Assembly: GCA_024256285.1 (NCBI GenBank)
Contig: JACGUG010000005.1
Location: forward strand, 1-46,942
DNA length: 46,942 bases
Source: an archaeon
Lineage (GTDB): Archaea; Thermoproteota; Nitrososphaeria; Nitrososphaerales; JACAEJ01
Reading direction: 5' to 3'
Shown: in pieces, positions 5,935 to 34,254 of the stretch
Layout of the letters: the number at the start of each line of letters is the position of its first letter
How positions within the stretch are numbered: the stretch's first letter is position 1
Program-made: the position numbers and the translations under genes
Notes under the pieces: model-generated
Told to the model about the DNA's origin: nothing
Database searches by the model: none
Seen by the model: the letters and a program-made list of their open reading frames with translations, nothing else

Positions 5935-7683
5935 TTGAACTTGACAAAAGAAAGTAAAGCTGAAAAGTTGACAGAATTGGCAAGAAGGCGAGGATTCTTC
6001 TGGCCAGCTCTAGAGCTCTATGGCGGCGTAAGCGGATTCTTATCCTTTGGAGAACTTGGCGTGAAGCTCAAGGAGAAGATCATCAGATTGTGGAGGGATT
6101 ATTTCGTTTACAGGCATGACTTTACCGAGGTCGATACACCTTTGATATCCCCCTACACGGTCTTCGAAGTATCAGGCCATGTAGAGAGCTTCAAAGACCC
6201 CATGGCAGAGTGCTCCAAATGTCATAGGAAGTTCAGAGCAGACCATCTTTTGATGGAATTCGGTCGCCATGTCCCAGAAAGGATGAGTATCGAGGATATG
6301 AAGAAAGAGTTGAACAAAGGAGATGTTAAGTGCAAAGAATGTGGTAACACGAAATGGGATGTAGGGCATTTCCTAACTATGTTCAGAACGACTATAGGAC
6401 CCTACAGCGAGAATGAAGGGTTCATGCGCCCTGAGACAGCTCAAGGTATGTTCACAGAGTTCAAGCGCCTTTATGAAGTATCGAGAGGTAAGATGCCTCT
6501 TGGTGTAGCGCAGATAGGGAAAGCCTTTAGGAATGAAATTTCGCCAAGGCAGGGCGTGATAAGGCTCAGAGAGTTCTCTATGATGGAAGTGGAGTTCTTC
6601 TTCGATCCATCAGACCCTGCTTGTCATCTTTTAGACCAAGTAGAAGATGAAGAGCTGAGGATACTGCCAGAGGAGACAGTCGCAAAGGGTATAGAAGAGC
6701 CCCTTGTTATGACTGTCAAAGAAGCTCTGAACAAAGGAGTGATAAAACAGGAGTGGCTTGCATACTTTATGGTACTGTCAAAGAAATTCTTAAGAAAACT
6801 CGGTATACCCGAGGATCAACAGAGGTTTTATGCAAAACTTCCTGGAGAGAGAGCCCATTATTCTGCCCAGACTTACGATCATGAAGTTCTCCTCGATAAG
6901 TTCGGGTGGGTCGAAGTGGCTGGGCATGCCTACAGAACGGATTATGACCTCAGCTCTCATATGAAGAAGAGCTCTGTCGACCTCTCTATTTCTGTGCAAC
7001 TAAAAGAGCCAATCAAAGTTAAGCGTCTGAAGATGAACATCGATGCAAAGAAGATCTGGAAGGCCTTCCCAGATAAGGTCAGTGGCATACTGAAAGGGTT
7101 ACATGGGATGAACCCAGAGGATGTGAAAAAGGAGATCGAAGATCTTGGAGCGGTAGTGGTCGAGGGGTGTAGATTGCCTATGGATGCAGTTGAATTTGTT
7201 GAGGTGGAAGAAGAGACGAAGGTCAGGCGTTTTATCCCTCACGTTGTAGAGCCAAGTTTTGGGATAGAGAGACTGATTTATGCTACACTCGAATATGCGT
7301 ACTGGGAGAAAGAAGAGCGAAGGGTCGTACTGAGAATTCTTCCATGCCTTGCCCCTATTCAAGCAGCAGTATTCCCATTGGTATCAAAGAAAAGATTGCA
7401 GAAAAAATCTCTGGCAGTACTAGAAGATTTGAGGAGGAGAGGGATCGATGTGATATACGACGATTCTGGCTCCATAGGTCGGAGGTATGCAAGGGCTGAT
7501 GAAATAGGTGTACCATTTTCCATAACGACAGACTATCAGACCTTAGATGATGATACTGTAACTGTGAGAGATAGAGATACATGGAAGCAGAAGAGGATTT
7601 CTGTTAAAGACCTCTCTGAATACCTCTTAGAGCTTTTACATTATAATTGTTCATTAGATGAGAGTAAAGAGAGTTATAGATGA
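5935..7683 (+). CDS. glyS: Glycyl-tRNA synthetase (archaeal/eukaryotic dimeric type)
   Basis: 582 aa; RRGFFWPALELYGGVSGF, FRTTIGPYSENEGFMRPETAQGMF, GVAQIGKAFRNEISPRQGVIRLREFSMMEVEFF, PHVVEPSFGIERL. Confidence 0.97.
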   Translation: MNLTKESKAEKLTELARRRGFFWPALELYGGVSGFLSFGELGVKLKEKIIRLWRDYFVYRHDFTEVDTPLISPYTVFEVSGHVESFKDPMAECSKCHRKFRADHLLMEFGRHVPERMSIEDMKKELNKGDVKCKECGNTKWDVGHFLTMFRTTIGPYSENEGFMRPETAQGMFTEFKRLYEVSRGKMPLGVAQIGKAFRNEISPRQGVIRLREFSMMEVEFFFDPSDPACHLLDQVEDEELRILPEETVAKGIEEPLVMTVKEALNKGVIKQEWLAYFMVLSKKFLRKLGIPEDQQRFYAKLPGERAHYSAQTYDHEVLLDKFGWVEVAGHAYRTDYDLSSHMKKSSVDLSISVQLKEPIKVKRLKMNIDAKKIWKAFPDKVSGILKGLHGMNPEDVKKEIEDLGAVVVEGCRLPMDAVEFVEVEEETKVRRFIPHVVEPSFGIERLIYATLEYAYWEKEERRVVLRILPCLAPIQAAVFPLVSKKRLQKKSLAVLEDLRRRGIDVIYDDSGSIGRRYARADEIGVPFSITTDYQTLDDDTVTVRDRDTWKQKRISVKDLSEYLLELLHYNCSLDESKESYR

Positions 7684-18460: not shown

Positions 18461-19666
18461 TTATGATGGAGCCTTTAAGGAGCGGCTGAGCCTCTCAACC
18501 GTCTTATATGCGACACTCAAAGGTACGGGTAGGCGACCGTAAAGAGCAGATTCTATGATTCTACCACCAAAAATCCTACAAACCTCTTCAGTAATTCTAT
18601 CGCTTTGCATGGCTATGTCCATGATCTTCCTTATTCTAAGACCTCTATCGAGCTCTTTGCCTACCTCTTTTCTCCATACTTCCTCATAAAGAACTAAACT
18701 ACTCTTCCCTTTTAATTTGCTGACGATCACCTCTCCACCTATGTCCCCACATATGACTGCTGTAGGAATTCCACCGCCATTCGTTGGCATGACTTGACCA
18801 GCAGCATCTCCAACAACTATCACATTATCGCTGTAAGTCTTTGGAAGAGGGCCTCCAAGTGGAACTAAACCACCCATCGTAGATAGAATCGCCCCTTTTC
18901 TTAACTTCTTCGAGGCGATAGGATGTTTATCGATGAACCTATTCAGATATCCTTTTACAGATACCCCTTTCTCAGAAAAGGAGGTTCTAATACCAAGTCC
19001 AACGTTTGCCATACCTTCTCCCTTGGGGATTATCCATGCATAGCCTCCTGGTGCATACTCGTTACTGAAGTAGACCTCGACTACATCAGGATCGACTTCA
19101 ACTCCCCCCATCAAACATTCTATCGTTACCCCTAAGTTGCGTGGGTCGTTTGAACCTAGCCCAACATCCCTTGTCATCTTTGAGGATGGACCGTCTGCTG
19201 CAACCAAAACATCTGTCTCAAGTCTAAGGGTCTTGGCTCCTTTCTTCACCAAAACTTCTTTGCCACCATTTCGTGCACCAATCACATTACAGAAAGTCCA
19301 TAGTTCTGCCCCGGCTTTTGTAGCGTTCATCACAAGCCATTTATCAAATCTACTTCTATCTATGATGTTCGAATTGAACTTAAACTCATAAATTTTCTTT
19401 GATGGACTGAGAACCGCTCCCCTTGAGCAGTTATTGGATATGACCCATTGGGGCAAGTTAAAGAGCCTTTTGGCCCTCTCTGCTTTCGGGAGAATCTTTG
19501 AGAACTCTTCTATTGCTGGAACAAGCTCACCGCACTGTATCGGATGGCCTATCTCCCTCTTCCTATCTATGATGAGTACATCAAAGCCTGATTCAGCAAC
19601 CCTCCTTGCAACCGAAGCGCCAGCAGGCCCTGCACCAACGACTATAACATCATGCTTTCCCTTCAT
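18461..19666 (-). CDS. Geranylgeranyl reductase-family FAD-dependent oxidoreductase
   Basis: 401 aa; VIVVGAGPAGASVARRVAESGFDVLIIDRKREIGHPIQCGE, YAWIIPKGEGMANVGLGI, VVGDAAGQVMPTNGGGI. Confidence 0.93.
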   Translation of the reverse strand: MKGKHDVIVVGAGPAGASVARRVAESGFDVLIIDRKREIGHPIQCGELVPAIEEFSKILPKAERAKRLFNLPQWVISNNCSRGAVLSPSKKIYEFKFNSNIIDRSRFDKWLVMNATKAGAELWTFCNVIGARNGGKEVLVKKGAKTLRLETDVLVAADGPSSKMTRDVGLGSNDPRNLGVTIECLMGGVEVDPDVVEVYFSNEYAPGGYAWIIPKGEGMANVGLGIRTSFSEKGVSVKGYLNRFIDKHPIASKKLRKGAILSTMGGLVPLGGPLPKTYSDNVIVVGDAAGQVMPTNGGGIPTAVICGDIGGEVIVSKLKGKSSLVLYEEVWRKEVGKELDRGLRIRKIMDIAMQSDRITEEVCRIFGGRIIESALYGRLPVPLSVAYKTVERLSRSLKAPS

Positions 19667-20218: not shown

Positions 20219-21298
20219 TCACACCCCTATAAGTGGTAGCCACCATTGAGCTGTAGCAAGGGTTATGAGTATCTGAATGATAGCAAGAGGTATCAATACA
20301 GTCCAACCAGACTCGAGCAACTGATCTATCCTTAAACGTGGGAAAACGCCCCTTCCCATTATTACGATCACCGTTATTACTGCCATCTTGAGGAGGAACC
20401 AGAATATCCCTGATAGCATTGGAGATATGTCATGTAAAAGCGGTATTGCAGGCCCACTCCAACCACCTAGGAAAAGTATAGTGATAAGGGATGCGGTTAC
20501 ACATAAGTCGAAGTACTCCGCCACCATCACAAGTGCAAATTGGACGCCGGTATACTCTGTGGGCCACCCAAAAACGACTTCCTGCTCCGCCAAAGGTATG
20601 TCAAAAGGTCTCCTTAAGAGTTCAGCCATCATCGCTATGAGGATCACTATGAAACCTATGGGTTGGAGGATTATGAACCATACAGATGATTGAGCTTCAA
20701 CGATTCTAGCCAAGTCAAAAGACCTAGTCGCTATCACTATGCCGGCTAACGATAGGACTATCGGGATTTCATAGGCTAACAGTTGAAAGGCTGCTCTTAA
20801 GGCTCCAATTGTGCAGTATTTGTTATTGGCCGCCCAGCCTGCCCCTACCATTATGAATGGTTTAGCCGTTAATATCACTAAAATCACCAACAAGCTCAGT
20901 GGCGTGTAGAATATGACCCAATAACCACCACTCGGATCGAGAGCGTAAGGTATGAAGGCTATGCTAAGGGCAGAGAGGAAGGCGGCTAGCATAGGCATGA
21001 GGTCGTAGAGGAATTTATTGGCTCTACTCGGAGTTATTATCTCTTTCTGAACTAGTTTAAGGAAGTCGGCAATAGGTTGAAAGAGCCCCAATCGGTTGAA
21101 AGGCCCTACATGAAGTGGTCCTATTCTGAGGTGCATTCTTGCTAGGAATTTACGTTCAAACCAGATCACGATTATAGAGAACAGCAACGAGAATAATGTC
21201 CCAGGGAAGATCAAAACCTTTATGAAAAGTTCGATGAGCTCAACAAAACTTAACCCTAGCATCTTATCACCTATCCACATCCAGAGGTATATAGTCAA
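20219..21298 (-). CDS. nuoH: Complex I subunit H
   Basis: IWFERKFLARMHLRIGP, LMPMLAAFLSAL, ELLRRPFDIPLAEQEVVFGWPTEYTG. Confidence 0.95.
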   Translation of the reverse strand: MTIYLWMWIGDKMLGLSFVELIELFIKVLIFPGTLFSLLFSIIVIWFERKFLARMHLRIGPLHVGPFNRLGLFQPIADFLKLVQKEIITPSRANKFLYDLMPMLAAFLSALSIAFIPYALDPSGGYWVIFYTPLSLLVILVILTAKPFIMVGAGWAANNKYCTIGALRAAFQLLAYEIPIVLSLAGIVIATRSFDLARIVEAQSSVWFIILQPIGFIVILIAMMAELLRRPFDIPLAEQEVVFGWPTEYTGVQFALVMVAEYFDLCVTASLITILFLGGWSGPAIPLLHDISPMLSGIFWFLLKMAVITVIVIMGRGVFPRLRIDQLLESGWTVLIPLAIIQILITLATAQWWLPLIGV

Positions 21299-22364
21299 AA
21301 GTTATGAATATTACAGGTATATCTCCAAGGGGTACATTCCTGCATAGATGTGGTAGTGCTGGAAGGTTTCTGAAAGATGGTGTGCTTATCTTTAATCTAT
21401 ACGGCTTGCTCTTCCCATCACTTACAAGGTAGTAACCGAACTCCCCCCTAGCCGACTCGACCCTACTGTAAGCCTCACCTCGAGGTGCGGTTGGCGGAAT
21501 CTTAGAACCCTTAGGGGAACCCTTTATAGGCCCCTTTGGTATATCCTTTAACGCCTGCCTCAATATGACTATGCTCTGTTCGATCTCTTTTAACCTCATC
21601 GATGCTCTATCAAAGGAATCCCCATTCTTCCCTGTGGGGACTTCAAAGTCGAACCTGTCATATACTTCATACGGCTCATCCTTTCTGACATCGGCCTTCA
21701 CCCCAGAAGCTCTGAGGTTAGGCCCGACTATCCCCAGCTTTACAGCATCTGACGGTTTTAAGATACCGACATTTTTAAAACGCATCTGAAACGTACGATT
21801 CCAAGCCATCATCTTATAATAATCCTCGAGCCTCTTCTCAAGGTAGTCGAGCCTCTTTAAAGCATCCTCCTTAAACCCGTCCGGCATATCCCAGCGCACA
21901 CCGCCTATCGTTGGATATGTATAGGTTATCCTTTGGCCAGACAGCTTTACAAGTAGGTCCAATATCAACTCTCTATCATTGATGGTCCACATCAACATCG
22001 TCTCAAAGCCGGCAGAGATGCCAACTAGGCTTACAGCATATAGGTGACTTGCAATCCTATTCAGCTCCGCCGCAATAACTCTTAGATACTTTGCCCTCTC
22101 AGGTATCTCTATACCCGTGAGCTCTTCAACGACTTCGACATATCCAAGAGTCGTGCCTATGGCGTCACAGTAGCTGTTGATCCTCTCGACAACTGGTATG
22201 TTTTGGATATATATCCTATTCTCCGCCATCTTCTCTATTCCTCTATGAGTATACCCTACATCCCATTCAAAATTTAAGACGGCGTCGCCATCAACATCCA
22301 ATATAAACCTGAAGTGGCTCGTTACTGGATGTTGTGGTCCCATACTCAACTTCATAACAGACAT
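21267..22364 (-). CDS. nuoD: Complex I 49 kDa subunit D
   Basis: MGPQHPVTSHFRF, VGYTHRGIEKMAE, RGEFGYYLVSDGKSKPYRLKI, PLDVDR. Confidence 0.95.
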   Translation of the reverse strand: MSVMKLSMGPQHPVTSHFRFILDVDGDAVLNFEWDVGYTHRGIEKMAENRIYIQNIPVVERINSYCDAIGTTLGYVEVVEELTGIEIPERAKYLRVIAAELNRIASHLYAVSLVGISAGFETMLMWTINDRELILDLLVKLSGQRITYTYPTIGGVRWDMPDGFKEDALKRLDYLEKRLEDYYKMMAWNRTFQMRFKNVGILKPSDAVKLGIVGPNLRASGVKADVRKDEPYEVYDRFDFEVPTGKNGDSFDRASMRLKEIEQSIVILRQALKDIPKGPIKGSPKGSKIPPTAPRGEAYSRVESARGEFGYYLVSDGKSKPYRLKISTPSFRNLPALPHLCRNVPLGDIPVIFITFDYIPLDVDR

Positions 22365-22380
22365 GATCCTTGACGCCCCT

Positions 22381-22857
22381 CTACTCTTGAGGTCTTTTAG
22401 GAAGGATGAAATCCTTTCTAAGTGGTGGTATCCCTTCCCAGTCTTCAGGAAGGAGGAGTAGAGATAGGTTTGGATGCCCTTCGAACTTTATCCCAAACAT
22501 CTCCCAAGTCTCCCTTTCGTGATAAAGCGCCCCTTCCCACACATCAACGAGGGACTTGAGAACTGGGTTATCCCTTGGAATCCTTGTCCTTAAAGCAGCT
22601 AAAATCTTCTTATCTATCGACCAGGCATGATAAACTACTTCAAACTCTTTCTTATCGATGTAATCCACGCCTGAAACTGAGGCTATATGGTCGAATCCAA
22701 GCTTATCTCTTAGGAATAAGCCTACGTCATAGATTCTATCCCTCTTGACAGATATCGATACTCTTCCCCTTCTCTGAACATCGATCTCCAATACATCATC
22801 AGGGAAGCTGGCTTTTACGTCCTCAACAACTCGATCTTCCATGCTCTTCTCACTCAT
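22381..22857 (-). CDS. nuoC: Complex I 30 kDa subunit C
   Basis: ALYHERETWEMFGIKFEGHPNLSLLLLPEDWEGIPPLRKDF. Confidence 0.95.
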   Translation of the reverse strand: MSEKSMEDRVVEDVKASFPDDVLEIDVQRRGRVSISVKRDRIYDVGLFLRDKLGFDHIASVSGVDYIDKKEFEVVYHAWSIDKKILAALRTRIPRDNPVLKSLVDVWEGALYHERETWEMFGIKFEGHPNLSLLLLPEDWEGIPPLRKDFILPKRPQE

Positions 22858-23327
22858 TTTTCATCGATCCCCTCTTTCTTGATCTTTTCTTGTAGCATCT
22901 TTATCCCTTGGATCCATGCCTCGGGTCTAGGAGGGCACCCTGGCACATATACATCGACAGGTATCACCCTGTCGACACCCTGAACAACGCTGTAAGAGTC
23001 CCAGTAGAATCCTCCTGTAGCCGCACATTCTCCTATAGCTATCACATACTTTGGGTCTGGCATCTGATCGTAAATCATCCTGACCCTTTTCGCCATCTTC
23101 TTGGTAACCAAACCTGTGATAAATAGCAGATCACACTCTCTTAGGGTTGGGAAGGGAAGAGTGCCGAAACGCTCTGTGTCGAACCTCGCGCATGCCCTCC
23201 CCATATCCTCTGGACCACAGCATCCAGTCTCTAAGTGTACAGACCAGAGTGACCATGCCCTCCCCCAATTCAGAATCCTTCGAAGAAATTTTATGTTCAT
23301 AAGCCTCTCTCTGACTTTTGAGAGCAT
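22854..23327 (-). CDS. nuoB: Complex I 20 kDa subunit B
   Basis: TGCCGPEDMGRACARFDTERFG, IAIGECAATGGFYWDSYSVVQGVDRVIPVDVYVPGCPPRPE. Confidence 0.96.
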   Translation of the reverse strand: MLSKVRERLMNIKFLRRILNWGRAWSLWSVHLETGCCGPEDMGRACARFDTERFGTLPFPTLRECDLLFITGLVTKKMAKRVRMIYDQMPDPKYVIAIGECAATGGFYWDSYSVVQGVDRVIPVDVYVPGCPPRPEAWIQGIKMLQEKIKKEGIDEK

Positions 23328-23328
23328 C

Positions 23329-23718
23329 TTAACTCCTCCATAACTTGAGATGCCTTAATGCATAAGACGCGACTATCGCCACCACGGTCAATACGCTTAT
23401 CGCTATGAATGGGAGTCCCAACGGGCCGGACAGCTTTGTCTTCAATTCTAGGTCAGCCAATCCAGGTGCAGAGATCAGCATAAGGATCGCGAAAGCCGTG
23501 AATACACCGTATATGAGGGCATAAGGGTAGTATTGTACTGTAACCCTCATATGTGCCCTTCCGACCGGAACCTGTCCACACTCAAATGACATATTCTTCT
23601 CTGCGCTCGGCTTCTTTTCACCTAAGAGTAAACCCGCACTGTAAAGACCTATAGGGGTTAAAGCTGAGAGAATAAAGTATATCGCCAAGGCCAATAAGTC
23701 AAAGTAACTTGCACTCAT
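23329..23718 (-). CDS. nuoA: Complex I subunit A
   Basis: FECGQVPVGRAHMRVTVQYYPYALIYGVFTAFAI. Confidence 0.9.
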   Translation of the reverse strand: MSASYFDLLALAIYFILSALTPIGLYSAGLLLGEKKPSAEKNMSFECGQVPVGRAHMRVTVQYYPYALIYGVFTAFAILMLISAPGLADLELKTKLSGPLGLPFIAISVLTVVAIVASYALRHLKLWRS

Positions 23719-23768
23719 AGCTGATCCCCCTCAGCTCCATACAACGTTTTAAGGCTTTTTTATTAAAC

Positions 23769-23815
23769 TTTTTGATTTCCTTTCGATAAAAATCAAAAAC
23801 AAAGAATTTAAATTC
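23769..23815. promoter_or_regulatory. Shared bidirectional nuoA/nuoJ promoter region with inverted repeat and palindrome
   Basis: TTTTTGATTT-11 nt-AAATCAAAAA (23769-23799) followed by perfect palindrome GAATTTAAATTC (23804-23815) in the 124-bp divergent gap. Confidence 0.45.
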
Positions 23816-23842
23816 ATAGAATTTTTCATCTAGGAGTGGACG

Positions 23843-24088
23843 GTGGGTTCTATGGCTGAAATCTATGAATTTATCTTTATCGGGTTGATGCTATTTACAG
23901 CCTTCCTTTCCATAAAACTTAAGAGAACTATTCATGCTGTCGTCTCCTTTCTCTTTATGAGCGTCTTTGTGGCTCTTCTCTTCGTCATGCTCAACGCCCC
24001 TTATGCTGCTGTCTTTCAGATTCTCATATACGCAGGGGTAATCGTGATTCTGATCTTGGTGACTCTACATACGATTAAAAAGTGGTGA
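23843..24088 (+). CDS. nuoJ: Complex I subunit J, N-terminal half
   Basis: 81 aa; HAVVSFLFMSVFVALLFVMLNAPYAAVFQILIYAGVIVILILVTLH. Confidence 0.88.
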   Translation: MGSMAEIYEFIFIGLMLFTAFLSIKLKRTIHAVVSFLFMSVFVALLFVMLNAPYAAVFQILIYAGVIVILILVTLHTIKKW

Positions 24089-24092
24089 GGAC

Positions 24093-24395
24093 ATGTCCCA
24101 GATTGGAAGGTTTGTTGGTGCAATCGCTGTTATCTTCTTTATCGTATTTCTTATGCCTTTGATCCTCCCGATAGCGTTTTTTGTATCTGCTCCTGCCCCA
24201 CCGCCTCCATTTACAGACAGCTTATTTGCGCTCTTTTGGGGGTATAGATTTTATGACACGATCTTCCTTGCCTTTGCCATCTTCGCCTCGATCGTAGGCC
24301 TCTCTTCCCTATTTCGAGCCGAAAGCCCCAAAGTTCATGTTGAGGAATCTGTCACTGAAGGATACGTAGAGGAGGTATTTGAGGAGGAGGAATGA
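24093..24395 (+). CDS. nuoJ: Complex I subunit J, C-terminal half
   Basis: 100 aa TM protein directly between nuoJ N-half and nuoK. Confidence 0.65.
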   Translation: MSQIGRFVGAIAVIFFIVFLMPLILPIAFFVSAPAPPPPFTDSLFALFWGYRFYDTIFLAFAIFASIVGLSSLFRAESPKVHVEESVTEGYVEEVFEEEE

Positions 24396-24398
24396 GCT

Positions 24399-24713
24399 GT
24401 GAGCAATCCCGATTTTACCTTATACGTCGTAACTGCAATTCTTCTGTACATCGTAGGGCTCTACGGCATCGCTATAAGGAGGAACATGGTAAGAACGGTT
24501 ATAGGTCTTGAAATTATCACAGCAAGCGTAAATCTGAACTTTTTAGCCTTCACATTGCTGGATCCTAAGTTATTACCTCTCGCCCAGTATTTCGTTGTAG
24601 TCTCGATAGTTCTCGGAGCTGCTGTTGCCAGCCTAGCCTTGATGCTAGTGATTCAAGCATACAGGCTCTACGGCTCTACAGACCTTAGAAAGCTCAACAA
24701 GTTGAAGTGGTGA
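24399..24713 (+). CDS. nuoK: Complex I subunit K
   Basis: GLYGIAIRRNMVRTVIGLEIITASVNLNFLAF, VVVSIVLGAAVASLALMLVIQAYR. Confidence 0.93.
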   Translation: MSNPDFTLYVVTAILLYIVGLYGIAIRRNMVRTVIGLEIITASVNLNFLAFTLLDPKLLPLAQYFVVVSIVLGAAVASLALMLVIQAYRLYGSTDLRKLNKLKW

Positions 24714-24716
24714 ATC

Positions 24717-26264
24717 ATGCCTCAGTCTTGGATAGTTTTACAACCCATCATTATCCTCTTCGCAGGCGCTCTCATACTGCCAACAATAGAATTCTTGGGT
24801 AAGGCTGTAAAACTCGAAAAGTTAAGAGGGACGGTTGCCGTCATAATTTTCGGCTTATCGCTGTATAGTGCATTAGGCGTTTATGGAGAGGTTCAGAGGC
24901 AAGGACCACTGACCTACTTCTTGAGCCCCTATGAGCCTCCAATCGGTGTAGACTTTTTCGTAGATCAGTTCAGCATCTTTATGGCATTAATATTCTGCCT
25001 TCTGGGCCTCTTGATCTCGATATACTCGATTAAATACATGGAGGATGACACGGGTCTCGATAAGTACTACTCCTTGCTCATGACTCTTGTTGCGGGTCTA
25101 GTTGGGATTTCATTCGCAGGAGATCTCTTTAATCTATTCATTTTTTGGGAAGTTATGAGCCTATCTTCCTATGCCTTAGTCGCATTTAAGAAGTACCGCT
25201 GGGAAGCGATAGAGGCGAGCTTTAAGTACCTAATCATGAGTACCATCGGCTCTCTGACCGCCCTTTACGCTATATCGGTCCTTTATGGTTTGGCTGGAAC
25301 TTTGAACATCTCCCAACTTGCGTCTATCATCCCAACATTAGAGACTTACCCGCCTCAACTGCCATACTTCATCATCGCCACAATAATTGTGGGTTTCGGT
25401 GTAACTGCCTCTATAGTACCCTTCCACTTCTGGCTTCCTGATGCTCACCCAGCAGCCCCGAGCGGGATAAGCGCCATGTTATCAGGGGTTGTTATCAAAG
25501 CCGGAGTTTACGCCATAGCAAGAGTCCTATTCTCCATATTCATCCCGACTGCTTTTAACTTCGGGACTACCTTGATACTGTTTGGCATTATAACGATCAC
25601 TGTGGCCAACTTTATGGCCCTTCTTCAAAGAGATATCAAGCGCCTTCTCGCCTACTCCAGTATAGTCAACATAGGCTACATAATCTTCGGCTTCGGCGTA
25701 GGTGCATACGCTTTAAATTTCTATGGAGTTGGTGGGTACAGCATAGCTGCTCTGGCCATCATGGGTGCCATCTTTCATGTCTTTAACCATGCTGTAGGCA
25801 AAGGTCTCTTATTCCTTGGTGCTGGTTCCTTCATACATGAAGTTGGGACTAGAGACCTGATGGAGTTGGAAGGTGTTGGGAAGAAGATGCCTTGGACAGG
25901 AGTATCTTTCTCAATAGGACTCTTGACGCTAGCCGGTGTTCCACCCTTGAGCGGATTCTGGAGTAAGCTATTCATAATACTTGCAGGCTACGCAGTGCTG
26001 GGCAACTCTTTTATGATCATCACCACAAGCATCGTTGTCCTCAATAGTATCTTCGCTGCAGCATATTACTTGTGGCTGATGCAACGCGTAATGCTCAGAG
26101 ACCCAAAGCCAAAGGCTAAAGGAGTTCATGAAGTACCGATCCTGATGGTTATACCTATAGTCATATTGGGCTTGATAACCGTTATAGTCGGATGCTGGCC
26201 ATTCGAGATCATCAATTTTGCGGATGTGGCTGCAAGATCGCTATTAGGATTATTGATGGGTTGA
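24717..26264 (+). CDS. nuoN: Complex I antiporter-like subunit N (Mrp/NuoN-like)
   Basis: 515 aa, multi-TM; FIFWEVMSLSSYALVAF, PFHFWLPDAHPAAPSGISAMLSGVVIKAGVYAI, LLAYSSIVNIGY. Confidence 0.87.
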   Translation: MPQSWIVLQPIIILFAGALILPTIEFLGKAVKLEKLRGTVAVIIFGLSLYSALGVYGEVQRQGPLTYFLSPYEPPIGVDFFVDQFSIFMALIFCLLGLLISIYSIKYMEDDTGLDKYYSLLMTLVAGLVGISFAGDLFNLFIFWEVMSLSSYALVAFKKYRWEAIEASFKYLIMSTIGSLTALYAISVLYGLAGTLNISQLASIIPTLETYPPQLPYFIIATIIVGFGVTASIVPFHFWLPDAHPAAPSGISAMLSGVVIKAGVYAIARVLFSIFIPTAFNFGTTLILFGIITITVANFMALLQRDIKRLLAYSSIVNIGYIIFGFGVGAYALNFYGVGGYSIAALAIMGAIFHVFNHAVGKGLLFLGAGSFIHEVGTRDLMELEGVGKKMPWTGVSFSIGLLTLAGVPPLSGFWSKLFIILAGYAVLGNSFMIITTSIVVLNSIFAAAYYLWLMQRVMLRDPKPKAKGVHEVPILMVIPIVILGLITVIVGCWPFEIINFADVAARSLLGLLMG

Positions 26265-26270
26265 TGAAAG

Positions 26271-28373
26271 ATGGAGGCAATAACACCTACAATAGGAATA
26301 GAAACACTCCCAGCTTGGTTGTGCTGGCTCTTCCCCCTAGTTGGCGCCCTCTTAACCCCCATATTGGCAAAGATCCATCCTAAGGTGAGGGACTATGGCG
26401 CTGTCTTCTTCTCCTTTCTCTCTTTCCTTATGGCTGCTATGCTCATCCCGCTCCTCTTTAATATTGAGGCGCTGCCTAAGTGGGAGGTCCTACCTTGGAT
26501 AGATTTGGAAGGCCTTCCAGTACTGTCGAAGATCGAGATGGGCGTTCTTATCGACCCTCTCAGTATAATTATGGCCAATGTCATCGCATCTATAAGCCTC
26601 CTGATAATGATCTACTCATTAGGTTACATGAAGGGAGACCCAAGCCTGACTCGGTACTGGTTCTTCATGAACTTCTTCATAGGGAGCATGGTCCTCCTCG
26701 TCATGTCAGAAAATCTGATTTTAACCCTCTTTGGATGGGAAGGGGTAGGCCTCTGTAGCTATGCTTTGATAGGCTTTTGGTACAGGGACTCTAAGGAAGA
26801 CTACATCGAGCGCTGGGTTGGAGAGCCACCAGAAGCATATCCCCCTTCACACTGTGGGATGAAGGCTTTTATAGCAACGAGAATTGGAGACCTAAGCCTC
26901 CTGTTGGGCGCCCTGATGATAGTCGCCTTCACTGGAACCTTGAGCTATATCGGGCTACTTGAAGAGGTTCAGCACTTGCCCCATGAATTCATGTGGGTCT
27001 TGGTCCCAGCAGCGATCTTCTTTTTCGGTGGCCCTATAGGCAAGTCCGCTCAACTTCCATTGATGGAGTGGCTCCCAGATGCCATGTCGGGCCCGACTAC
27101 TGTCAGTGCACTTATACATGCCGCAACGATGGTCAATGCTGGAGTTTACCTTGTCGGTAGAATTTTCCCAATAATGTATGTGGCTTCAACGGTATACCCT
27201 GAGATGATCTCCTTCTTCTATGTAATTGCCTGGATAGGCGTCTTAACAGCCTTTGTTGCCGGAACACAAGCTATGGCCTCGAATGAGATAAAAAAGGTCC
27301 TCGCCTACTCTACCGTCAGCCAGCTTGGCTACATGATGCTCGCACTTGGAGTTGCTGGCACAACTCTCGAATTCGCCGTAGGCTATACGGCTGGCGTCTT
27401 TCATCTTATGAGCCATGCTGTATTCAAGGCAGCCTTATTCCTCACGGCGGGTGCAGTCATCCATGCTGTTGAGTCAAGGTTCCTACATCATATGGGTGGG
27501 ATAAGGAAGGAGATGCCGATAACATTTTGGTGCATGTCCTTGACAGCCTTCTCGTTGATGGGCGTCCCTATACTGTTTAGCGGATTTTGGAGCAAAGACA
27601 TGATCTTAGAGTCTACTCTGTTGGCTGGTCAACCACTCATATTCATATTGGCAGCCATAACTGTTGCTATAACATGCTTTTACAGCGTTAGAATGATCGC
27701 TTTGACCTTCTTAGGTAAAAAGAGTGAGCGCATTCATGAGATGGAAGATGAAGGTCACCATGTTCATGAGGCTCCAAAGGTCATGTGGGTTCCCTACGCT
27801 ATCCTAGCCGCTGTAACACTGGCTTTCGGTATAGGCAGTATCTTCCCGTACAATGGTATCGGTATCTGGCTGGAGCACACATTTGAGGGCTATCTGAGCA
27901 AGTTTATAGAAATAGAACACCACCTCTCCCCCGTATCCCTATCAGCTGCTGAGGGAGCATTGCCACAAGAGTTGGCAGTCTTGATGACGATAGTAGCATC
28001 TCTGACGATGCTTGCTATAGGTACATGGATAGCTTATAGGTTATACGTCAAGCGTACTGTAGACCCTGTAAAGCTGGTCGGTAGTAGATCAGTGCTAAAA
28101 TCACTGTGGACTTTCCTGTTTAGGAGATGGTACATAAACGCCTTCTACTACAAGGTCTTTATCTACCCAACTATTTCCATCAGTAGATGGGCTTTGAAGC
28201 ATATAGAGGAAAGTGGGATAGATAAGTTCAACTATGTGGTGGCAGATGCTGCTAAAGGCTTCTGTAGCCGCTTCAGAAGGACCCACACTGGAGTCCTGAA
28301 CTATAACATCATCGGCATGATCCTTGGCTTTATCCTCATCATTATACTGATGTTTGTAGCTCTGGTGTGGTGA
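26271..28373 (+). CDS. nuoL: Complex I antiporter-like subunit L
   Basis: 700 aa; FGWEGVGLCSYALIGFWY, SAQLPLMEWLPDAMSGPTTVSALIHAATMVNAGVYL, extended C-terminal helices. Confidence 0.95.
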   Translation: MEAITPTIGIETLPAWLCWLFPLVGALLTPILAKIHPKVRDYGAVFFSFLSFLMAAMLIPLLFNIEALPKWEVLPWIDLEGLPVLSKIEMGVLIDPLSIIMANVIASISLLIMIYSLGYMKGDPSLTRYWFFMNFFIGSMVLLVMSENLILTLFGWEGVGLCSYALIGFWYRDSKEDYIERWVGEPPEAYPPSHCGMKAFIATRIGDLSLLLGALMIVAFTGTLSYIGLLEEVQHLPHEFMWVLVPAAIFFFGGPIGKSAQLPLMEWLPDAMSGPTTVSALIHAATMVNAGVYLVGRIFPIMYVASTVYPEMISFFYVIAWIGVLTAFVAGTQAMASNEIKKVLAYSTVSQLGYMMLALGVAGTTLEFAVGYTAGVFHLMSHAVFKAALFLTAGAVIHAVESRFLHHMGGIRKEMPITFWCMSLTAFSLMGVPILFSGFWSKDMILESTLLAGQPLIFILAAITVAITCFYSVRMIALTFLGKKSERIHEMEDEGHHVHEAPKVMWVPYAILAAVTLAFGIGSIFPYNGIGIWLEHTFEGYLSKFIEIEHHLSPVSLSAAEGALPQELAVLMTIVASLTMLAIGTWIAYRLYVKRTVDPVKLVGSRSVLKSLWTFLFRRWYINAFYYKVFIYPTISISRWALKHIEESGIDKFNYVVADAAKGFCSRFRRTHTGVLNYNIIGMILGFILIIILMFVALVW

Positions 28374-29932
28374 AGATGATCTTAGAAGATAACTCCTTCA
28401 TATTGCTGCAGTCGATACTCATACCAGCTGCCTTCTCTGTTGTTGCTTTGGTTGCTGGTAAGCGCCTTAAAGAGAAGACTGGCTGGATATCCTTCATAGT
28501 CTTGCTTTACTCCTCTATTCTGTTGGGCTATGTCCAATTGAAGTTATTCCTAGACCCTGCATTTGAAGCCCTTGAGGCATCTTATACATGGCTTCCTGAT
28601 ATAGGAACCTTTAGCCTTGGTAACTTCACTTTAAGGGCAGACGGTCTCAGTACACCCGTCGCTTTGATTATAACGATACTTTGTACAGTCATCTCCATAT
28701 ACTCCATCAAGTATATGGAGCATGAGCATGCCCTAGACAGATACTTTGCTCTTTACCTTCTCTACGCAGCAGGCATGATAGGGACAGTACTTGTGACGAA
28801 CCTAGCCGCCTTCTTCCTGTTCTTTGAGCTCATGCTGATACCGTCTTGGGCCTTGATAGGCGTGTGGGGTACTGGACTAAAGGAGAGGGTAGCCTTCAAG
28901 TACTTCATGTTCACAGAGGCTGGTGCTCTCTCACTACTCGCTGGTATAGTAGCCACAGGCTTCATAGCCAACACATTCAACATATTTGAAATATCTCAAG
29001 GCATGGAGGGTATCGCTCTAGGTACTCAACTTGCCATTGTTATAGCGATTTTATTGGGCTTATTCGTCAAGATGGCGATCTTCCCACTTCATACATGGCT
29101 TCCAGATGCTCACGCTGAAGCCCCGACGCCCATAAGTGCACTTCTTTCCCCAGCTATGATAGGGATAGGCGGATATGCAGTGATAAGGATCGTCTACACA
29201 GGCTTTCCAGCAGTCATTACTGCACAGACACCACAATTCATGCTCATACTATCCTTTCTGGCTTTGATAACTATGGTGTATGGAGGTTACATGGCTCTTG
29301 CACAAGACGATATCAAGAGACTCCTCGCATACTCAAGCATAAGCCAGATGGGCTACATGCTGTTCGGCATAGCATCGGTCTCAACTATAGGTGTCCTTGG
29401 TGCAGTCCTACTCTACGTGAGCCATGGTTTAGCTAAAGCTGTGCTCTTCATGGTTTCGGGGGTTTTAATACATGAGTTTAAGACGAGAAGCATAAAAGAG
29501 CTTGGTGGTCTTGGTCCAAAGATGCCCTATACAGCAGTTGCCACGCTTATGGGTTTCCTTGGATTGATGGGCTTTCCATTCATCATAGGCTTCTGGGCGG
29601 AGTTATACATATTCACAGGCTCCATGTATACCGCTCTTCAAGGTTTTAGCTACCTTATCGGGCCGAATACAATTCGCATCCTTATAACATCTTTAGCAAT
29701 AATGGGCTCTATACTAACCGCCGGCTATGGCTTATGGACTGTGAGGCGAGTCTTTTATGGTCAACCTACTGAAAAAACGATGGATGCAAAGGAAGGATCG
29801 GTAATTATGCTTGCCCCGATAATGATCCTCGCTATTCTTGCTCTAATTCTCGGCATATACCCTGGGCTAGTCGCTACAGGTGCATCAAGGTACATCTCAG
29901 AACTTCTAAGTAGCTTAATTCCAATATTATAG
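28367..29932 (+). CDS. nuoM: Complex I antiporter-like subunit M
   Basis: 521 aa; FFELMLIPSWALIGVWG, FPLHTWLPDAHAEAPTPISALLSPAMIGIGGYAVIR. Confidence 0.94.
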   Translation: MVKMILEDNSFILLQSILIPAAFSVVALVAGKRLKEKTGWISFIVLLYSSILLGYVQLKLFLDPAFEALEASYTWLPDIGTFSLGNFTLRADGLSTPVALIITILCTVISIYSIKYMEHEHALDRYFALYLLYAAGMIGTVLVTNLAAFFLFFELMLIPSWALIGVWGTGLKERVAFKYFMFTEAGALSLLAGIVATGFIANTFNIFEISQGMEGIALGTQLAIVIAILLGLFVKMAIFPLHTWLPDAHAEAPTPISALLSPAMIGIGGYAVIRIVYTGFPAVITAQTPQFMLILSFLALITMVYGGYMALAQDDIKRLLAYSSISQMGYMLFGIASVSTIGVLGAVLLYVSHGLAKAVLFMVSGVLIHEFKTRSIKELGGLGPKMPYTAVATLMGFLGLMGFPFIIGFWAELYIFTGSMYTALQGFSYLIGPNTIRILITSLAIMGSILTAGYGLWTVRRVFYGQPTEKTMDAKEGSVIMLAPIMILAILALILGIYPGLVATGASRYISELLSSLIPIL

Positions 29933-29945
29933 TAGTTCATATGAT

Positions 29946-30803
29946 CTAAAATTGGTATGAAATCATAAGATCAGCAAGATCGAGTAAGTGCTTCTTTGCC
30001 TTCGTATCACTCAACAGATTTAACTTCTGCTTCGCTTTCATTGCATAAAGCTCAGCCATCTTTTTTAGGTAAGATAGTTTGTCCTGACCTTTCTGCTCTA
30101 TCTCCAAGGCACTTGATACCTTATCTTCCTTGTCCCAATCGAGGGCATCGTCTTGTATCTGGTAAGCTATACCCAATAAATAACCGTAGCTGGAAAGAGC
30201 CTCTATCTCATCCTCTGTCCCTCCACCTATAATCCCGCCTATCTTTGCCGATGCCTCAAAAAGTGAAGCAGTCTTTTGGGAGATCAAGTTTATGTATTCG
30301 TCCCAACCCAAGCGATAGATTTTAGGGTCGATCTTCAATTCGCCGAATTCACCATCACACATACGGAGAGCTACCGATGACAGTTCTTTTCCAACCCTCT
30401 TATCCTTGTACCTCAGAGCTATATCAAGTATTATCCCAAAGACGAAGTCAGCAGTCAAAATGGATGCACCTAAACCGTATCTAATATGGAAGGCGGGTCT
30501 TTCACGTCTTAAAAACTCTTGATCTAAGATGTCATCATGAATTAGAGACTCTGTTTGCAAGAGCTCTATAGCAATCGCTACCGATAAAGGCTCAACATCA
30601 CTTCTGCCTATGCTCTCCGCTGAAAGTAGGAGGATGATGGGTCTTATCCTTTTGCCTCCCTCTAAAGCGTATCGTAAAGGTTTATAGAAATGAGATCCCT
30701 TATAACGCTCTAACTCTAATTTTATCGCCTTCTCTATCTGAGAGCGATAATCCTTCATCTTCTCCATAAGAGTACTAAATGTTAACGAACTTTCATCTTT
30801 CAC
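29946..30803 (-). CDS. Polyprenyl diphosphate synthase (paralog 1)
   Basis: 285 aa; GGKRIRPIILLL, TESLIHDDILD (FARM), YQIQDDALD (SARM). Confidence 0.93.
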   Translation of the reverse strand: MKDESSLTFSTLMEKMKDYRSQIEKAIKLELERYKGSHFYKPLRYALEGGKRIRPIILLLSAESIGRSDVEPLSVAIAIELLQTESLIHDDILDQEFLRRERPAFHIRYGLGASILTADFVFGIILDIALRYKDKRVGKELSSVALRMCDGEFGELKIDPKIYRLGWDEYINLISQKTASLFEASAKIGGIIGGGTEDEIEALSSYGYLLGIAYQIQDDALDWDKEDKVSSALEIEQKGQDKLSYLKKMAELYAMKAKQKLNLLSDTKAKKHLLDLADLMISYQF

Positions 30804-30898: not shown

Positions 30899-32395
30899 TC
30901 ACTCTATTTGAGCTACTACCATCATAAAGACAGGGCCTCTCAAGTCTATTCTTTTGTTCTTGCTTGTGATAAATCTCAACACATCTTCTCTCACTCTGAT
31001 GTTGAGCTCCCCAGCAGTGCTCGTCATCGCCCTTTTCATAACAAATCCTTTCTTACCCGACTTTACGGCTTCCTCTATATCAGTAGCCGCGACTGCAGCT
31101 AAAGAATCGATATACCTTATTCCAGTCTGTACCCCCCTCTCTCTCGCTGCCTTTATCAACTCTCTCTTTGAGAGGGTTTCATCTTTTCTAGGGATCCCAA
31201 GAATATTGCCATCATAGGCCAAGACTTCGTTAAAGGCTGCCCTCCCTAAGAGTCTCTTTCCTTTCTCATTCTGGACTAGCTTTACTGTTACCTTCTTCCC
31301 AAGCATCTTTCCATCGTATACAGTATACTCACAAGGGCTGGGCATATCCCCATATCTTTCACAGCCTTCTATTATCGCACGTTGCATCCTCTTCCCCTCT
31401 TCTGTTCGAGGGACTTTATCTATAGTTACTGAAGAGGCGATCTCTCGATCAGAAAGTTCTAACTGAACGTAGAACTGAGGATAGACCAATTTACGCACAT
31501 CTGAAAAGCCGTAGATGACCATAGCCAACCTCTCGGCTCCCAGACCTAAGTTCAAGACTGGGTACATCACCCTATACCTTTTAAGGACCTTATTACTATA
31601 CATTCCAAAGTCTGCAACTTCGACCCAGTCTTTTCGATCCTTCACCCTCACAAAGACTTCAGTTTCGCTATTCTTCTCATAATAGCTGGCGCTCCTCCTC
31701 TTCTTCACATACTTTACCTCCTCTATTCCAAAAGGCTTAAACAGTCCTTTAATGACCTGCTCCACATACTCTATATCTACTTGTCTATCCATAACGACGC
31801 TTGAAGCTGAATGGTAGCACCTAAGATGAGTTGCATCTAAAGCTTGCTCCCTTCGGAAGCAGAGGTCCACAGAAAAGAGCTTGATTGGGAGAGGCTCTTT
31901 ATCCTGAAACTCTTTTAAAGTTAAAAACCATCCCGATGTCATATGACTCCTAAGGGTCAGATTTGTAGCAATAGGTCCCTTATGCTTTAACTCGGGGAAG
32001 GTGCTCAAAACCATCAAGGCTTTATCTTCATTTATCGAGAGAGTCTCGGCGAGTTTGGTGATCAACTCATCACTATCGAATAGGCCTTTTTTGTAATTGT
32101 GAAAGACTTTTTGTAATACGGTCTTCTTCTTTGGTTCGAGGGCAACCCCCATCTTTTTGAGAAGGTCTAGCTTGTCTTGGTCGATTCCTACGTCGGGTCT
32201 AGGCAGCGTTGCGAGGTAAAAACATCTATCTAGTATAGTTGGAGCTTCCCTACCCCATTGCTTATAGATATCCCCCTCTTCGATGAAAATAGGATTGTAG
32301 ACCTCTCTGAAGCCTAGATCGATGTAAGCATGCCTAAGCTTCTCAATAACGTCTGAAAGTAGATGTTTTCTAACTCCTTTCGATTCTATAGGCAA
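30899..32395 (-). CDS. sepS: O-phosphoserine--tRNA(Cys) ligase (SepRS)
   Basis: 498 aa class II aaRS: YNPIFIEEGDIYKQWGREAPTILDRCFYLATLPRPDVGI, TNLTLRSHMTSGWFLTL, DLCFRREQALDATHLRCYHSASSVVMD, VLNLGLGAERLAMVIYGFSDVRKLVYPQF. Confidence 0.95.
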   Translation of the reverse strand: MPIESKGVRKHLLSDVIEKLRHAYIDLGFREVYNPIFIEEGDIYKQWGREAPTILDRCFYLATLPRPDVGIDQDKLDLLKKMGVALEPKKKTVLQKVFHNYKKGLFDSDELITKLAETLSINEDKALMVLSTFPELKHKGPIATNLTLRSHMTSGWFLTLKEFQDKEPLPIKLFSVDLCFRREQALDATHLRCYHSASSVVMDRQVDIEYVEQVIKGLFKPFGIEEVKYVKKRRSASYYEKNSETEVFVRVKDRKDWVEVADFGMYSNKVLKRYRVMYPVLNLGLGAERLAMVIYGFSDVRKLVYPQFYVQLELSDREIASSVTIDKVPRTEEGKRMQRAIIEGCERYGDMPSPCEYTVYDGKMLGKKVTVKLVQNEKGKRLLGRAAFNEVLAYDGNILGIPRKDETLSKRELIKAARERGVQTGIRYIDSLAAVAATDIEEAVKSGKKGFVMKRAMTSTAGELNIRVREDVLRFITSKNKRIDLRGPVFMMVVAQIE

Positions 32396-32574
32396 TACTC
32401 TCCCTTCCTAAATGGTCGACTTAACTTATCCATCTTTCAGGGTAATAAAGTTAAAGAAGATGGGAAAGGATGGATTTGTGATCATCTCCATTTAATTGCA
32501 TAGGTATTGTGCCACATAAAGTTTATAGCGCTGTTGTCTCACGTCGAAATCTGCTAAGTAAAATTTTAATGAAA

Positions 32575-32664
32575 GCCGGGGTGGCCGAGCGGTTAGGCGG
32601 CAGGCTGCAGACGGTTCTATGTGTAGAGACCTGCTCTACGCAGGTTCGAATCCTGCCCCCGGCT
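32575..32664 (+). tRNA. tRNA-Cys(GCA) with an 18-nt intron at 37/38 (about 32611-32628)
   Basis: GCCGGGG/CCCCGGC acceptor, anticodon stem GCAGG/CCTGC, loop CTGCAG|A, T arm GCAGG-TTCGAAT-CCTGC, discriminator U73; central helix CTGC/GTAG of a bulge-helix-bulge. Confidence 0.93.
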
Positions 32665-32694: not shown

Positions 32695-34254
32695 TCATTT
32701 AGCGATGACTTCTTGCTTTCTCTTGATGTAAAAGTCGTCCTTGATCTTCCTTCCAGTTCTCTTCTCCCATTCCTCGATAGGAACTCCAAACTCTCTCTGG
32801 ATTTTATCTCTATACCATTCAGGAATGACGTTGAAAGCACAGAATGGGATTATCCTACCGTCGGGGACTAGATAATGTATACCACACCTCATCACTCTCT
32901 CGATATCGTAGTTGTACTTGTCCTGAAAATGCATCATGCCTATGAAAAGTGCTTCATGGTGAAAATTGCCCAACTCTTTGTAATTATGCTTCAAAAGAGC
33001 ATTGAATATTATCTTTGAAAGGTTCAGTCCTTTGGGTTGCTTCTCCTTATCCACGAACTTCCTGAGCTTGGATAGCACCTTGATAGCTACCCAGTATCTA
33101 TTCTTACCCTTCTTTATCTCTTCTGATTTTTCTGTCAAATATTCAAAAAGTCCATCTATATCGACGAATCTGGTTATGGGGATCAACTTATCATCTTCTC
33201 TGAAGACATAAGTGGCTGCTCCACACGTAAAGTGAACAGAAAGCTCGTAGTGCACCCTCCCTGTCAGGGCCTCCACAAATTCGCTTACAGGACCTGTGCA
33301 GGGTACTGGGTAAAAGTCATCCTTTGCTATCTCTCCATCGGTCTGCTCCTCTATCCTCTTTATCACATCCGGGATAGTTATCCTATATTTATCCCGCTCA
33401 GCCCTAGTGAGTCTGCCAGTGAGAGATACGGGCTGAAAGTTTACTCCCCGAACTACGTCTATATTCTCTGCTGCAAACTTGACTATCCCCCCAACTTCAT
33501 GGTCGTTCACACCTTTGATAACGGTTGGTACGAAGACTATCCCAACCCCTGCACTTCTGCAGTTTTCTAAACTTCTGCAGTTTTCTAATATAGCGGGTAT
33601 CTCCCAGTGGTTCTTAGGGTTGGTCTCTGGAGTTAAACCGTCGAAGCTAAGGTAGATCGTGTTTGTACCTGCCTCCCTGACCCTTCTGGCCAATGTAGGA
33701 TTGGTTGCAAGCCTTATCCCATCCGTATTGAGTTGAACATGATCTATGCCCTCCCCCTTTACGATCTTTATGATCTCTATGATATCGTCCCTAAGACATG
33801 GTTCGCCTCCTGTCAATTGCACAGCATTGCCAGGGACTGGCTTCTGATTCCTTAGATTTCTTGCCATCTCTCTGATCTGATCTAAACTAGGTTCATAGAT
33901 GTAGCCCGCTCTTTTTGCATAGAAAAAGCAGTACCAGCAGGCCAGATCACACCTATTCGTAACAACGATATTTGCTAAAGTCGTGTGGGTTAAATGATCT
34001 TTGCATAAGCCACAATCAGAAGGACAATTTACAACTTCTTTTTGAATGTTGGGATTGTCGATCCCCCTCCCCTTCATACTATGTCCGCTAGCCCTTTGAT
34101 ACATTTCGTAAGATCCCCAGTACAACTCCTCTACTTTACCATGATCTGGACAGCTCTTTTCTATCCAAACCTTGCCGTCTCTCTCAAATACTGTGGCTGG
34201 GAGAACCTTGTTGCACTCGGGGCAGATGCTTTTGGTCTCTCTTATGATGTTCAT
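32695..34254 (-). CDS. tes: Radical SAM protein, tetraether lipid synthase (Tes / MJ0619-like)
   Basis: 519 aa; CPECNKVLPATVFERDGKVWIEKSCPDHG, CPSDCGLCKDHLTHTTLANIVVTNRCDLACWYCFFYAKRAGYIYEPS, QLTGGEPCLRDD, CGIHYLVPDGRIIPFCAFNVIPEWYRDKIQREFG. Confidence 0.9.
   Translation of the reverse strand: MNIIRETKSICPECNKVLPATVFERDGKVWIEKSCPDHGKVEELYWGSYEMYQRASGHSMKGRGIDNPNIQKEVVNCPSDCGLCKDHLTHTTLANIVVTNRCDLACWYCFFYAKRAGYIYEPSLDQIREMARNLRNQKPVPGNAVQLTGGEPCLRDDIIEIIKIVKGEGIDHVQLNTDGIRLATNPTLARRVREAGTNTIYLSFDGLTPETNPKNHWEIPAILENCRSLENCRSAGVGIVFVPTVIKGVNDHEVGGIVKFAAENIDVVRGVNFQPVSLTGRLTRAERDKYRITIPDVIKRIEEQTDGEIAKDDFYPVPCTGPVSEFVEALTGRVHYELSVHFTCGAATYVFREDDKLIPITRFVDIDGLFEYLTEKSEEIKKGKNRYWVAIKVLSKLRKFVDKEKQPKGLNLSKIIFNALLKHNYKELGNFHHEALFIGMMHFQDKYNYDIERVMRCGIHYLVPDGRIIPFCAFNVIPEWYRDKIQREFGVPIEEWEKRTGRKIKDDFYIKRKQEVIAK
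33553..33588 (-). repeat. 18-bp in-frame tandem duplication within tes (LENCRS-LENCRS)
   Basis: acttctgcagttttctaa occurs at 33553 and again at 33571. Confidence 0.92.

Follow-up and report, generated by a model that had tools for sequence, protein, structure and literature searches.

The sepS gene studied here and the tRNA-Cys gene diverging from it probably make up half of a dual cysteine-encoding system of a methanogen of 'Ca. Methylarchaeales' (Nitrososphaeria), in which each enzyme gene is linked to its own tRNA. We found 16 tRNA-Cys genes in the seven genomes of the family, ten of one lineage (type S) and six of another (type C), and every one adjoins a gene for a Cys-tRNA enzyme. All ten type S genes adjoin sepS or SepCysS, all six type C genes lie upstream of CysRS, and there is no crossed pairing. 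SepRS and SepCysS, the linkage of tRNA-Cys to SepCysS, and isoacceptor preference are known already; what is new is that tRNA-Cys lineages and enzymes sort one to one in a family with both routes. The features of the window (the whole stretch of 46,942 nucleotides that was analysed) on which the text draws are these:

20219-29932, both strands: complex I/Fpo-type cluster, with subunits B, C, D and H and an Oxidored_q4 protein on the minus strand and three antiporter-like subunits on the plus strand
29946..30803, minus strand: polyprenyl (short-chain isoprenyl) diphosphate synthase (IPPS; PF00348, 161.6 bits), downstream of sepS
30899..32395, minus strand: sepS, O-phosphoseryl-tRNA synthetase (SepRS), an intact ORF of 498 aa with a TTG start
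32396..32574: divergent intergenic region of sepS and tRNA-Cys, 179 bp, presumed to hold the promoters of both genes
32575..32664, plus strand: tRNA-Cys(GCA), type S, mature length 72 nt, G37, U73, CCA not encoded (Rfam RF00005, 51 bits; ARAGORN with introns)
32612..32629, plus strand: tRNA-Cys intron, 18 nt at 37/38, ACGGTTCTATGTGTAGAG (ARAGORN and bulge-helix-bulge pairing; boundaries ambiguous by one base)
32695..34254, minus strand: tetraether lipid synthase Tes (radical SAM; NF045702, 756 bits, cut-off 450), the next gene past the tRNA

SepRS matches positions 45-532 of the profile TIGR00470 with 566.9 bits (cut-off 380.65), scores above the cut-off of Pfam SepRS_C, and is matched by the PDB SepRS structures 2odr, 2du7 and 2du3 at E<=1e-130. 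Its Sep-pocket motifs HxT, SxS and NxG (RSHMTSGW, YHSAS, NLGLG) are those of M. maripaludis SepRS, and the TTG start sits just behind a Shine-Dalgarno-like GGGAGAG. The N-terminal extension of about 40 aa that is usual in archaeal SepRS (TIGR00470 positions 1-44) is absent; the match starts at position 41-45 in all seven SepRS of the family (L027-L031, L024, L025), and no such extension is encoded in any frame upstream of sepS in the source genome (G000) or in G004-G006. The extension does not define SepRS, certain bacterial SepRS also being without it (PMC8762117). Neither the TRAX nor the endonuclease V neighbour typical of Clade I SepRS lies beside sepS, whose neighbours are IPPS, tRNA-Cys, Tes, NDK and antiporter subunits.

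The tRNA gene has the GCA anticodon, the U73 and the bulge-helix-bulge (BHB) type of intron at 37/38 that mark an archaeal intron-containing tRNA-Cys. The central helix of the BHB pairs GUAG with C32-C35. Across the ten type S copies of the family the intron pairs with nucleotides 32-35 as expected of this motif at 38 of 40 pairs, compared with a mean of 15.4 and a maximum of 29 for shuffled sequences. The length of the intron ranges from 15 to 21 nt among these copies and its sequence is varied; the tRNA-Cys homologues of other Thermoproteota are intron-less and alignable along the entire mature length. Run with default settings, ARAGORN calls the gene a tRNA-Ser(AGA) with a long variable arm, in which case sepS would not adjoin its substrate at all, and the intron together with the variable loop does fold like such an arm. 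We rejected this call, which has a negligible chance of being right, as an artefact of the 18-nt intron: position 73 is U here but G in the genome's own tRNA-Ser genes, the intron-less homologues match over the whole length, the BHB pairing is nearly complete, and the intron varies in length among relatives. Base-pairing is possible between the 3' part of the intron and a stretch made up of the variable loop and the first bases of the T stem (window 32612-32650; 9 bp here, and similar by eye in some relatives), so that ARAGORN reads a long variable arm. A further observation concerns the two type S copies of a genome: in G000 they are identical, intron included, and in G001 and G002 the introns differ between the copies (L003/L033, L004 and L005 versus L025, L030 and L029). 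The identity in G000 suggests recent homogenisation or duplication, possibly through gene conversion.

A tRNA-Cys gene is the divergent neighbour of sepS in all seven family genomes, with a gap of 179-845 bp. The preliminary description of this DNA had already placed sepS (minus) and tRNA-Cys(GCA) (plus) about 180 bp apart as divergent neighbours, and the profile match, ARAGORN with introns and the measured gap bear this out; it mentioned no intron and missed that SepCysS and CysRS also adjoin tRNA-Cys genes. In genus g1 (G000-G002) a second type S tRNA-Cys precedes SepCysS by 250-280 bp, both on one strand. The type C gene precedes CysRS by about 16 bp in G000, 18 bp in G002, about 141 bp in G003 and 0.6-2 kb in G004-G006. 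The type C gene of G003 (contig C23, L040, about 6500-6632, minus strand) apparently has two introns, in the anticodon loop and the T loop respectively, and was missed by ARAGORN. We found three tRNA-Cys genes in the source genome, and none is further than about 280 bp from a gene for a Cys-tRNA enzyme; the naive chance probability of this is about 1e-10, with the copies not fully independent, two type S genes being duplicates. As a control, we scanned 30 proteins encoded beside the non-Cys tRNA genes of this genome and found no aaRS among them, and for the genes scanned we reject a general clustering of tRNA genes with cognate aaRS genes. The block of IPPS, sepS and tRNA is inverted relative to its flanks between genera, with the linkage kept, and IPPS stays beside sepS wherever the relatives' assemblies cover that side.

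The mean identity between types S and C is 66%. A maximum-likelihood tRNA tree separates them with support of 100/98: one side holds type S and those tRNA-Cys of other Thermoproteota that are linked to SepCysS, and type C falls on the other side, together with tRNA-Cys from other Nitrososphaerales. In the alignment, both types carry GCA, G37, A47, A59 and U73, which are the reported SepRS determinants (PMC9976931); exclusivity therefore does not follow from sequence, and the two types may be cross-charged. We infer that type S would be the main substrate of SepRS, and type C that of CysRS.

Two SepCysS are encoded in the source genome together with SepRS, on contigs C109 and C11, both over the curated cut-off (615 and 415 bits against NF006810). 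Both lie outside the window, from which SepCysS had been said to be absent. They are about 37% identical to each other and fall in separate parts of the SepCysS tree, and the second lineage has no linked tRNA-Cys. In genus g1 a 60-aa SepCysSn-like ORF stands between tRNA-Cys and SepCysS and overlaps the SepCysS start; a short ORF of like appearance is found at the same place in seven loci of family f27. The 60-aa ORF fits the SepCysSn described by Mukai 2017. The peptide had no match in PDB or NCBIfam, and homology to the N-terminal domain (NTD) of SepCysE was not detected by sequence search. Contig C110 encodes a full-length CysRS (536.7 bits), and with this enzyme and two SepCysS the source genome, as read from its genes, has both routes to Cys-tRNA. 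The combination which the preliminary description had named as speaking against its reading, a CysRS and no SepCysS, is thus present by half: the CysRS is there, but so are two SepCysS. A full-length CysRS occurs in six of the seven family genomes. In the assembly of the seventh, G001 ('Candidatus Methylarchaceae archaeon HK01M', the nearest named relative, with a SepRS 89% identical), we saw neither CysRS nor type C tRNA, and orthologues of the CysRS flanks were not found in about 645 kb of its 1.36 Mb.

The CysRS of the family is unusual. We take the zinc ligands of CysRS to be C28, C209, H234 and E238 in E. coli numbering. In all six family enzymes the zinc-ligand Cys of WHIEC, at the Cys209 position, is replaced by Asp (WHIED) and HHENE by HHEAE; Cys28, His and Glu are kept, and the enzymes do not have the canonical set of four zinc ligands. 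No canonical (HIEC) CysRS was found in the family assemblies, and the CysRS branch of the family does not follow the canonical CysRS of the order. The same signature (HIED with HHEAE) occurs in one CysRS of G011 and in the second CysRS of G498, both of full length (HIED loci: G000:C110 (L021/L034), L016-L018, L022, L038, L218 and L205). A shorter CysRS paralogue of about 360-400 residues, also with Asp, stands beside a canonical CysRS in several Nitrososphaerales (for example L217, L226, L228, L230 and L231). G011 lacks any SepCysS match that reaches the cut-off, none of its CysRS matches over the cut-off is canonical, and we saw no full-length CysRS in it other than the HIED enzyme; this suggests that enzymes of this subclass would charge tRNA-Cys. 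We found no literature on Asp in the CysRS zinc site.

To place the linkage, we surveyed 398 Thermoproteota genomes, 40 of them with sepS. At the 40 sepS loci from outside the family, of which contig ends truncate four, no tRNA-Cys was found nearby, and tRNA-Cys was beside CysRS at none of 20 loci in other SepRS-bearing Thermoproteota genomes and none of 23 in other Nitrososphaerales; these negative counts are slightly soft, as ARAGORN can miss a tRNA-Cys with two introns (as it did in G003). Within this phylum sample, the linkages of sepS and of CysRS to tRNA-Cys are thus traits of one family. We reject sepS/tRNA-Cys as a widespread transferable unit in Thermoproteota. The preliminary description had suggested inheritance of the pair as a unit and raised its recurrence in other lineages. 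The former holds within one family, through all seven genomes and an inversion, and does not extend beyond it; recurrence was not found for sepS, whereas tRNA-Cys is beside SepCysS at 11 of 25 loci in other Thermoproteota. This last linkage has been described for several lineages (Mukai 2017, PMC5424206; 2022 survey, PMC8762117). In family f56, five loci (L053, L054, L056, L058, L059) have a non-cognate tRNA-Lys(CTT) upstream of sepS, at distances from a few hundred bp to about 1 kb.

These data suggest two parallel cysteine-encoding systems in one cell. In the proposed scheme, the type S tRNA-Cys would be transcribed with its 18-nt intron and spliced at 37/38. SepRS, encoded 179 bp away, would charge it with phosphoserine, and SepCysS, one copy of which is encoded behind the second, identical type S gene and the 60-aa ORF, would convert Sep-tRNA-Cys to Cys-tRNA-Cys. 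In the parallel route, the zinc-site-variant (HIED) CysRS would charge type C, encoded immediately upstream of it, with free Cys. The linkage of enzyme and tRNA genes would keep matched pairs inherited together. A stronger version, in which the two systems are insulated on the same codons, so that SepRS/SepCysS with type S and the variant CysRS with type C are non-interchangeable and held by linkage, is possible but doubtful.

A possible objection to the dual-system interpretation is that the linkage, though real, has no functional meaning: one family would simply have preserved an old tRNA-Cys/sepS neighbourhood, and both enzymes would use both tRNA types. The flanking IPPS, Tes, NDK and antiporter genes are largely conserved across the family as well, both tRNA types share the core determinants, and the pair is confined to this family among the sepS loci surveyed. 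Set against this, adjacency is seen for sepS, SepCysS and CysRS alike, the tRNA lineage matches the pathway in 16 of 16 genes, the other tRNA genes scanned in the source genome have no aaRS beside them, and the sepS/tRNA pair outlasted an inversion that moved it relative to its flanks. We consider the objection rather unlikely to be correct, and we infer that selection, more than slow rearrangement, has kept the linkage. Several points do weigh against two linked systems: with one clade and seven genomes the linkage may go back to a single ancient event, the type C/CysRS linkage is loose in genus g3 (0.6-2 kb), the second SepCysS lineage has no tRNA-Cys link, and the CysRS branch departs from the canonical CysRS of the order.

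It might also be supposed that SepRS is a relic and that CysRS makes all Cys-tRNA while the Sep route decays, as the full-length CysRS in six of the seven genomes would allow. This is very improbable: in the six family genomes whose assemblies cover all of sepS the gene is intact, and in the seventh its reading frame stays open as far as the contig runs; the Sep-pocket motifs are preserved, each genome has one or two SepCysS, and HK01M shows no CysRS and no type C tRNA.

The system resembles the SepRS-SepCysS pathway of methanogens, Archaeoglobi and others in its SepRS and SepCysS families, in the SepCysSn-like ORF before SepCysS and in a tRNA-Cys with G37 and U73 (PMC5424206; PMC8762117). That pathway includes the tRNA-Cys-SepCysSn-SepCysS-SepRS operon of Bathyarchaeota BA2 (Mukai 2017, PMC5424206; PMC8762117). 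It differs in that sepS diverges from its own intron-bearing tRNA-Cys, apart from SepCysS; that a second tRNA-Cys accompanies SepCysS and CysRS is tRNA-Cys-linked too; and that SepRS has neither the N-terminal extension nor a TRAX neighbour. In Methanosarcina mazei, SepRS and CysRS are redundant and differ in the tRNA-Cys isoacceptor that they prefer (reviewed in PMC9976931). That cell, too, has both routes and at least two tRNA-Cys isoacceptors; here, by contrast, the two tRNA lineages are separate in phylogeny, each has a genetic link to a single route, and such a preference is a prediction. As in the pyrrolysine cassette (pylS-pylT with pylBCD), an aaRS gene is kept beside a dedicated tRNA gene, but there is no orthogonal codon (both tRNA types read UGC/UGU) and no single mobile cassette.

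The findings touch the question of whether the indirect Sep route was ancestral and displaced by CysRS, and of how cells keep both. A clade with a dedicated, linked tRNA-Cys lineage for each route offers a testable case whose controls occur naturally, in seven genomes of which one apparently is without the CysRS/type C pair. If the systems were insulated, tRNA partition would be recorded in the genome by the linkage, and one charging route could follow phosphoserine/sulfide while the other followed free cysteine. Cys-tRNA formation in thaumarchaeal methanogens would here be examined for the first time: in the literature searched, no paper covered 'Methylarchaeales' together with 'aminoacyl-tRNA synthetase', and neither SepRS nor tRNA is mentioned in the description of the order (PMC9478090).

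The source genome (1.48 Mb, 118 contigs, 95% complete) is that of a methanogen, with mcrA on contig C44 (922.8 bits). The statement that no methanogenesis genes are visible holds for mcr in the window but misleads about the organism, and an Fpo/Nuo-type complex I cluster stands in the window. The publication on HK01M and related MAGs places them, as methanogens within Nitrososphaeria, in the order 'Ca. Methylarchaeales' and reports an Fpo-like complex (PMC9478090), which the cluster in the window matches. We did not see mcrA in the assemblies of G003, G004 and G006 (three of the seven family genomes), though sepS is kept there. Tes is outside the Cys system; lipid genes surround sepS, namely Tes, IPPS and a geranylgeranyl reductase-family protein at 18461-19666. 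Elsewhere in the source genome, ARAGORN calls a tRNA-Pyl(CTA) at G000:C25:1366-1452 (L099), next to an aldolase and an aminotransferase, which may be a misread intron-bearing tRNA.
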